The translations under genes and the position numbers were made by a program. A DNA stretch of 64,000 bases, taken from the NCBI GenBank assembly GCA_903855995.1, contig CAIOAN010000007.1, forward strand, positions 1 to 64,000, written 5' to 3'. The stretch is from an uncultured Opitutia bacterium (GTDB lineage: Bacteria; Verrucomicrobiota; Verrucomicrobiia; Opitutales; UBA953). This document shows, in pieces, positions 19,886 through 21,580 of the stretch. The notes below the pieces were generated by a model, which searched no databases, had not been told where the DNA came from, and saw only the letters and a list, made by a program, of their open reading frames with translations. Position 1 is the first letter of the stretch. Each line of letters starts with the position of its first letter.

Positions 19886-20794
19886 TCACTCGGCCAAGCC
19901 GAGGATGGAGTGGGCGAAGGCCTTGGCGTCAAAGGGCTGCAGGTCCGCCGGTTGTTCGCCGACGCCGATGAAACGCACGGGGACACCGAGTTCGCGGACG
20001 ATGGCGACGAGCGCGCCGCCGCGAGCCGTGCCGTCGAGCTTGGTGACGATGAGGCCCGAGAGGCCCACCGCCTCATGGAAAACCTTGGCTTGTTCGATCG
20101 AGTTCGCACCGAGCGAGCCGTCGATGACGAGCCACTTCTCGTGCGGTGCGCCGGCGTGAGCCTTGGCGGTCACGCGGACGACTTTGCGCAACTCTTCGAG
20201 CAGGTGCGCCTTGGTGTGCAGTCGGCCGGCGGTATCAAGGATGACGATGTCGCAAGCGCGCGCCACGCCGGCTTTCACGGCATCGAAGGCTACCGCCGCG
20301 GGGTCGGCACCGGCCGCACCGCCGACGACTTGGACGTCGAGGCGATCGGCCCAAGCGGAGAGTTGTTCGCCCGCCGCGGCGCGGAAGGTGTCGCAGGCGC
20401 CGAGCAGGCAGGTGCGATTTTCCTGTCCCCAGCGCCAAGCGAGTTTCGCCGCCGTGGTCGTCTTGCCAGCGCCGTTGACGCCTAGGAGCATGATCACCCG
20501 AGGCTTGGCGGTGTCGACGGTGGTGGAAGGTGTCTCGCCGCCGAGCGCTTTCACGATGACGGCGGCCGCCGCTTCGGAAGGGCTGGCCTTGCGCAGGCCC
20601 GCATCGGCTTTCCAAGCGGCTTGGGCAGCGGCCACGATTTCCCCCGAGGTGGCCGGGCCGAAATCAGCTGCGATGAGGCGCTCGCGGAGTTGCTCCGCCG
20701 AGGTCGCATCCATCGGGCGCGCGAGCAGGTTGGCGACGGCTTCCGCCGTGCGGCTCAGGCCAGACTTCAGTCGTTCAAAGAAGCCGCCAGCCAT
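19886..20794 (-). CDS. ftsY: Signal recognition particle receptor FtsY
   Basis: GVNGAGKTTTAAKLA; DTFRAAAGEQL; DTAGRLHTK; TKLDGTARGGA. Confidence 0.96.
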   Translation of the reverse strand: MAGGFFERLKSGLSRTAEAVANLLARPMDATSAEQLRERLIAADFGPATSGEIVAAAQAAWKADAGLRKASPSEAAAAVIVKALGGETPSTTVDTAKPRVIMLLGVNGAGKTTTAAKLAWRWGQENRTCLLGACDTFRAAAGEQLSAWADRLDVQVVGGAAGADPAAVAFDAVKAGVARACDIVILDTAGRLHTKAHLLEELRKVVRVTAKAHAGAPHEKWLVIDGSLGANSIEQAKVFHEAVGLSGLIVTKLDGTARGGALVAIVRELGVPVRFIGVGEQPADLQPFDAKAFAHSILGLAE

Positions 20795-20797
20795 CGT

Positions 20798-21580
20798 TCA
20801 ATTCCCTTCGGCTTTGCGCGGATCGCGGCCCAGCTCTTCCTTATAGCTGTCCAGGATGCCGTTCACGAAGCGCTTGGACTCGTCGGTCGAGAATTCTTTG
20901 GCGATGTCGACGGCCTCGTTGATGCTGACGACCGGGGGGATGTCGGTGCGGCGCATCAGTTCGAAGATGGCGACGCGCAGGATCGCGAGATCGACCCGGG
21001 CGATGCGGGCGAAGGCCCAGTTCTTGGCATACTTGCCGATGACTTCGTCGATGAGGGTGACATCGCGGATCACGCCTTGGATCAGTTCCTCGGCGAAGGA
21101 AAAGTAGTCTCGGGGTTTCTCGCGTTCGGAGAAAAGATCGAACAGCGCGGTGACCATGTCCGCATGGCGCTGTACTTCCCAGGAACAGAGGAACTGCATG
21201 GCCAGGACGCGGTTGTCATGGCGGCGGTTACGCTTCGCGGGGGCGGCGGCCGGATCCGGCACGACCGGTTCGTCGGGGGCGGCGATGCTGATCTCAATGC
21301 CCGTCGGGAGGTTGATGCGGCGCATCACGTCGACGGTCTGCGCCGAGGAGTTGATAATCTCGATGTTGCGACGATGCCCCCGGACCTCGTCTTGGTCGGC
21401 TGAGCGGTAGACCTCGATTTGCGAAGGCAGCGGGAAGGGGCCGGAGATGCGTGCACCGGTGGGCGTCACGCTGGCGACGATATCCGAGGCGCATTGGTCG
21501 ACCATGCGGTAATCGATGCCCTTGATACGGATGCGTATCTTAGCGCGAGCGGAAGGGGAAATGGTAGATTCGGTGTCCAT
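20798..21580 (-). CDS. nusB: S10(NusE)-like domain fused to transcription antitermination factor NusB (260 aa)
   Basis: One continuous ORF. Residues ~14-99 match S10: KIRIRIKGIDYRMVDQCASDIVASVTPTGARISGPFPLP...TVDVMRRINLPTGIEISI; residues ~121-260 match NusB: RVLAMQFLCSWEV...ARIARVDLAILRVAIFELMRRTDIPPVVSINEAVDIAKEFSTDESKRFVNGILD. ATG at 21580 overlaps the ribH TGA. Confidence 0.9.
   Translation of the reverse strand: MDTESTISPSARAKIRIRIKGIDYRMVDQCASDIVASVTPTGARISGPFPLPSQIEVYRSADQDEVRGHRRNIEIINSSAQTVDVMRRINLPTGIEISIAAPDEPVVPDPAAAPAKRNRRHDNRVLAMQFLCSWEVQRHADMVTALFDLFSEREKPRDYFSFAEELIQGVIRDVTLIDEVIGKYAKNWAFARIARVDLAILRVAIFELMRRTDIPPVVSINEAVDIAKEFSTDESKRFVNGILDSYKEELGRDPRKAEGN

Follow-up and report, generated by a model that had tools for sequence, protein, structure and literature searches.

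The stretch of DNA analysed here (64,000 nucleotides, called the window below) comes from an Opitutales genome and carries, on its minus strand, a gene in which an S10/NusE-like domain is fused to a NusB domain. The features discussed here are:

19886-20794, minus strand: ftsY, downstream neighbour of the fusion
20798-21580, minus strand: S10-NusB fusion gene, 260 aa (P0001; translation of 21580-20798)
20816-21232, minus strand: NusB domain, residues 117-255, with the basic N-terminus RNRRHDNR
21233-21280, minus strand: linker rich in Pro and Ala, residues 101-116, modelled with low confidence
21281-21541, minus strand: S10/NusE-like domain, residues 14-100, with 55% identity to rpsJ of the same genome
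21383-21421, minus strand: shortened loop QIEVYRSADQDEV, residues 54-66, in place of a 23-residue ribosome-binding loop
21580-22116, minus strand: ribH, upstream neighbour, whose stop codon overlaps the fusion start codon
L001:1492-1800, minus strand: canonical rpsJ, 102 aa, in the S10 operon between fusA (upstream) and rplC and rplD (downstream)

The start codon of the fusion and the stop codon of ribH share the sequence TGATG, and ftsY begins after a 3-nt gap from the fusion stop. The order ribH-nusB-ftsY is common to genomes with the fusion and to outgroups that have none.

Pfam places a Ribosomal_S10 match at residues 16-99 (6.9e-13; 49.1 bits against a cut-off of 21.2) and a NusB match at residues 122-246 (3.8e-31). 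The NusB part also passes the NCBIfam equivalog TIGR01951 (130.7 bits against 88.35) and, judged by score, is a member of the NusB family. The fused S10 falls below both rpsJ equivalog cut-offs (TIGR01049, 64.9 against 72.75; NF001861, 69.8 against 85), unlike the genome's own rpsJ, which passes the two. Because it falls short of these cut-offs and of the canonical loop, the S10 part is an S10 fold that is not classed as ribosomal uS10.

The assembly (13 contigs, 97.4% complete) contains exactly two S10 genes, the fusion and the canonical rpsJ, and the fusion is its sole nusB. An earlier note, made from the letters of the window alone, had reasoned that a genome with no other rpsJ would have to use the fusion in its ribosomes; a separate, intact rpsJ is present in the S10 operon, with a ribosome-binding loop of 23 aa (DISRLTVNRSPHVDKKSMDQFEI).

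The same note had aligned the fusion by eye with S10 of E. coli and proposed that about 10 residues of this loop were missing, 13 residues standing in place of 23 between flanks that line up without gaps. The 13 residues lie exactly at the coordinates that it gave. Alignment to the genome's own rpsJ gives a single 10-residue gap over LTVNRSPHVD (plus or minus one residue) with colinear flanks, so that the fused loop has 13 aa compared to 23 aa. Independent alignments with rpsJ of the same genome, the same family and the same order agree that the gap sits in the ribosome-binding loop; a gap outside it would have spoken against the note.

The shortening is general among the fusions. The long loop with SPHV is absent from all 36 that were aligned, the window's included; theirs measures 13-14 aa, or 8 aa in the genome G299, and its length is constant within fusion clades. 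None of the canonical rpsJ sequences examined, 65 of the order and that of E. coli, has lost the loop. Taking as invariant the rpsJ positions with the same residue in at least 97% of these 66 sequences, the fusions retain 13% of such positions in the loop, compared to 59% in the N-terminal flank and 56% in the C-terminal flank. The residual 13-residue hairpin has a net charge of -3, that of the loop of the genome's own rpsJ being 0.

The note had further stated that a loop-deleted S10 was used for E. coli NusB-S10 structures, and the PDB chains bear this out: in 3d3b, 3imq and 2kvq, residues 46-67 of NusE are replaced by Ser. NusE engineered to lack 46-67 was folded in complex with NusB (PMC4642336). 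The suggestion that evolution made the same cut holds for its place, the natural gap falling within the engineered segment, and not for its extent: evolution removed 10 residues (15 in G299), whereas the engineered deletion took out 22 and put in one.

The loop is likewise missing from the structural models, a check that had been proposed with the original observation. The AlphaFold2 model of the window fusion (pLDDT 85, pTM 0.85) has strands at 44-57 and 66-76 that form a short hairpin at the site of the former loop, and the G299 model (pTM 0.84) has strands at 44-56 and 59-69. Foldseek matches of the fusion model include chains of S10 and of NusB; in the E. coli NusB-S10(delta loop) structures, both partners are hit. 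The S10 domain is thus predicted to fold as S10, with a short beta-hairpin replacing the long loop. It would dock in the groove of the NusB to which it is joined; for the arrangement of the two domains, the models give pTM only.

G299 itself (L006:1498-2244, minus strand) is the deepest-branching fusion and has a highly diverged S10 domain whose fold is still predicted.

Among 388 genomes sampled across the phylum, matches to both domains without internal stops were found only in the window genome and G299, which belong to the same genus, so that in this sample the fusion is confined to one Opitutales genus. Within the genus, 37 of 55 genomes, all 37 species-level, have the full fusion, one more (G390) has it split over two contig-end fragments, and nine have a NusB without the S10 domain (G102, G439, G436, G411, G433, G401, G402, G419 and G391; L005 and L179-L186). 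No NusB domain was found in three further genomes of the genus, G407, G414 and G438 (74-87% complete), probably owing to assembly gaps. A survey of 327 genomes from the order tabulated a second S10 for this genus only, G581 apart. G581, from another family, shows one further match each to S10 and to the NusB domain (L227, L228), the latter in a 487-aa frame that is possibly RsmB; contamination is possible. Outside the phylum, phage and plasmid records gave no match spanning 80% of the query, and no relative was found in viral contigs.

Nearly all the genus genomes compared are metagenome bins, and in such mostly metagenome-assembled material faulty assembly, the wrong frame or an error in setting the gap by eye could mimic a shortened fusion. 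This artefact, to which we attach virtually no probability, is refuted by the recurrence of the same fusion in 37 species-level genomes with low dN/dS, and by the concordant placement of the gap in independent alignments.

In a tree of S10 proteins, the fused domains nest in the rpsJ clade of the genus and its sister genus (support 99/97), and 35 of them form one clade (95/91); the G299 domain is a long branch of unsure placement. By this tree, the fused S10 is derived from the lineage's own rpsJ. Trees, synteny and alignment together document a duplication of rpsJ, its in-frame insertion and the deletion of the loop tip.

A tree of RibH, NusB and FtsY recovers the genus as one clade, in which G299 splits first (98/95), and on it three changes are required to explain the distribution of the fusion, for which one gain plus two losses is the best reading. 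Eight of the nine genomes without the S10 domain form one clade, all of 1.2-1.5 Mb. The distance from the ribH stop to the NusB core is 46-55 nt in the nine; typical fusions have 347-355 nt there, and G299 has 322 nt. The losses are therefore clean in-frame excisions of about 300 bp and not erosion. Two losses inside one genus show that the S10 part can be done without; we regard it as useful, though replaceable. Since two lineages dropped the domain, the pattern also suggests that ribosomal S10 can still act as NusE in them.

Over 23 species, dN/dS of the S10 part is 0.14 (median) or 0.18 (by sums), which corresponds to purifying selection; that of the NusB part is 0.05, a stronger constraint. 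The S10 part evolves faster than both NusB and rpsJ. This faster rate, the 15 loop residues missing from G299 and the double loss would also suit a decaying remnant of the duplication and fusion, retained merely as an N-terminal extension. We regard such decay as unlikely: dN/dS stays at about 0.14-0.18 across the 23 species, loop length is fixed inside clades, both models, G299 included, fold with high confidence, and the domain was lost by clean in-frame excision with no erosion.

For S10, the residues that contact NusB are H15, R16, D19 and V26 (PMC8341153), equivalent to Y24, R25, D28 and V35 in the window protein. The equivalents of R16 and D19 are retained in 36/36 fusions. V26 corresponds to V, I or A, and H15 to Y, F or H, Y being already present in most canonical S10s examined. 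In the rpsJ of fusion genomes, conservation as seen by eye on alignments is too high to judge relaxation at the NusE residues.

On the NusB side, we examined the reported S10-contact positions Y18, L22, E75 and E81. The E81 equivalent is D in all 37 fusions and that of L22 is V, I or L in 33 of them. The other two have shifted: Y18 is replaced by Cys in 25/37 fusions and by Val in G299, compared to Y or F in 36/36 non-fused NusBs, and E75 by Gly or Ala in 27/37. Part of this pattern reflects phylogenetic clustering. In the window fusion the Y18 equivalent is C132 (codon 21185-21187, minus strand), a Cys shared with 24 other fusions. Going by the shifted Y18 and E75 positions, the interface in cis may have been rewired or weakened, and the drift is a sign either of ongoing rewiring now that both partners share a chain or of ribosomal S10 having ceased to be the partner.

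Such drift of S10-contact residues in fused NusBs only (Y18 to C or V, E75 to G or A), together with the fact that the S10 domain can go while NusB stays, would also be compatible with a domain that acts as an autoinhibitor or buffer, filling the NusB groove, barring ribosomal S10 and lowering or conditioning antitermination. We doubt this explanation. All the fusions retain the S10 residues R16, D19, R68, H70 and R72, and their S10 part is under purifying selection. Moreover, S10 is described as the part that contacts NusG, RNA polymerase and SuhB (PMC10250234, PMC4642336), and a docked S10 is therefore expected to be productive.

The retention of R68, H70 and R72 in 36/36 fusions, along with most of the core, could instead point to a double role as a ribosomal protein, in which the fusion brings S10 to the nascent 30S or makes specialised ribosomes. 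This we hold to be very improbable. No fusion has an uncut ribosome-binding loop, and K30, R31 and P79, invariant in canonical S10, are altered in most of them. Docking on NusB keeps S10 off the ribosome (PMC10931766). Finally, nearly all fusion genomes have a separate rpsJ, the exceptions being incomplete assemblies.

On the most economical reading, the fusion is probably a cis-assembled NusB-NusE module for rRNA antitermination that is kept off ribosomes, while rpsJ serves the ribosome. With rather less assurance, we also favour describing it as a natural transcription-only NusE, a paralogue without the ribosome plug which, tethered to NusB, uncouples antitermination from the pool of ribosomal S10. 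The earlier note was right about the anatomy of the fusion; its functional claim, that the protein is transcription-only and unable to occupy the ribosomal S10 site, is one that we too infer from the sequence.

At the stem of the genus, rpsJ was duplicated, the copy came to stand in frame between ribH and nusB, and the tip of its ribosome-binding loop was lost. In the cis-assembled module, the S10 domain would use its usual alpha1/beta2 face to occupy the groove of the NusB to which it is tethered. The two would form a permanent 1:1 NusB-NusE, able to bind boxA-type RNA and to couple to RNA polymerase and NusG in rRNA antitermination. Two things should keep the fusion out of the 30S head, the missing loop and the docking on NusB, which blocks association with the ribosome; the intact rpsJ would supply the ribosomes. 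As a result, antitermination would be insulated from the free pool of ribosomal S10, and one protein relieved of two jobs.

Neither the window genome nor any of the 55 genus genomes yielded a 16S rRNA gene, and there is therefore no rrn leader in which to seek boxA. Even assemblies that are 97-99% complete in 8-13 contigs show none, possibly through a gap in binning.

S10 is the textbook protein with two jobs, one in the ribosome and one in transcription antitermination, and this lineage appears to have divided them between two genes. The deletion hits the same loop that structural biologists took out by hand. The fusion resembles NusB-S10(delta loop) of E. coli (PDB 3d3b, 3imq, 2kvq) in pairing a loop-less S10 1:1 with NusB in the same folds, but it is natural, a single chain, and shortened by 10 residues (15 in G299) instead of 22; its S10 is moreover a diverged paralogue, with an intact rpsJ elsewhere. 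It shares its two protein families and the conserved R16 and D19 contacts with the canonical NusB-NusE(S10) of rrnTAC, where, however, ribosomal S10 itself moonlights as NusE, in place of a dedicated paralogue covalently joined to NusB. Duplication followed by specialisation of one copy is also known for RfaH and LoaP (from NusG) and for bL31B (from bL31A). Nonetheless, bL31B still enters the ribosome, which the fused S10 would not, and RfaH and LoaP act at selected operons with no fusion to a Nus partner, whereas the fused S10 is joined to NusB.

We found no report of a natural S10-NusB fusion in the open-licence literature. For biochemistry, the fusion supplies NusB and NusE in one chain. 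Its clade, in which the fused state occurs beside a further-shortened and a reverted one, makes it testable whether sharing S10 with the ribosome is a regulatory link or thrift. If true, one origin and two reversals would amount to a natural experiment on why S10 moonlights.

Finally, the named relatives are mostly freshwater Opitutae metagenome bins, the habitat being inferred from record titles. Two records labelled Akkermansia muciniphila and Polynucleobacter (L094 and L109) carry the Opitutales fusion and look misnamed.
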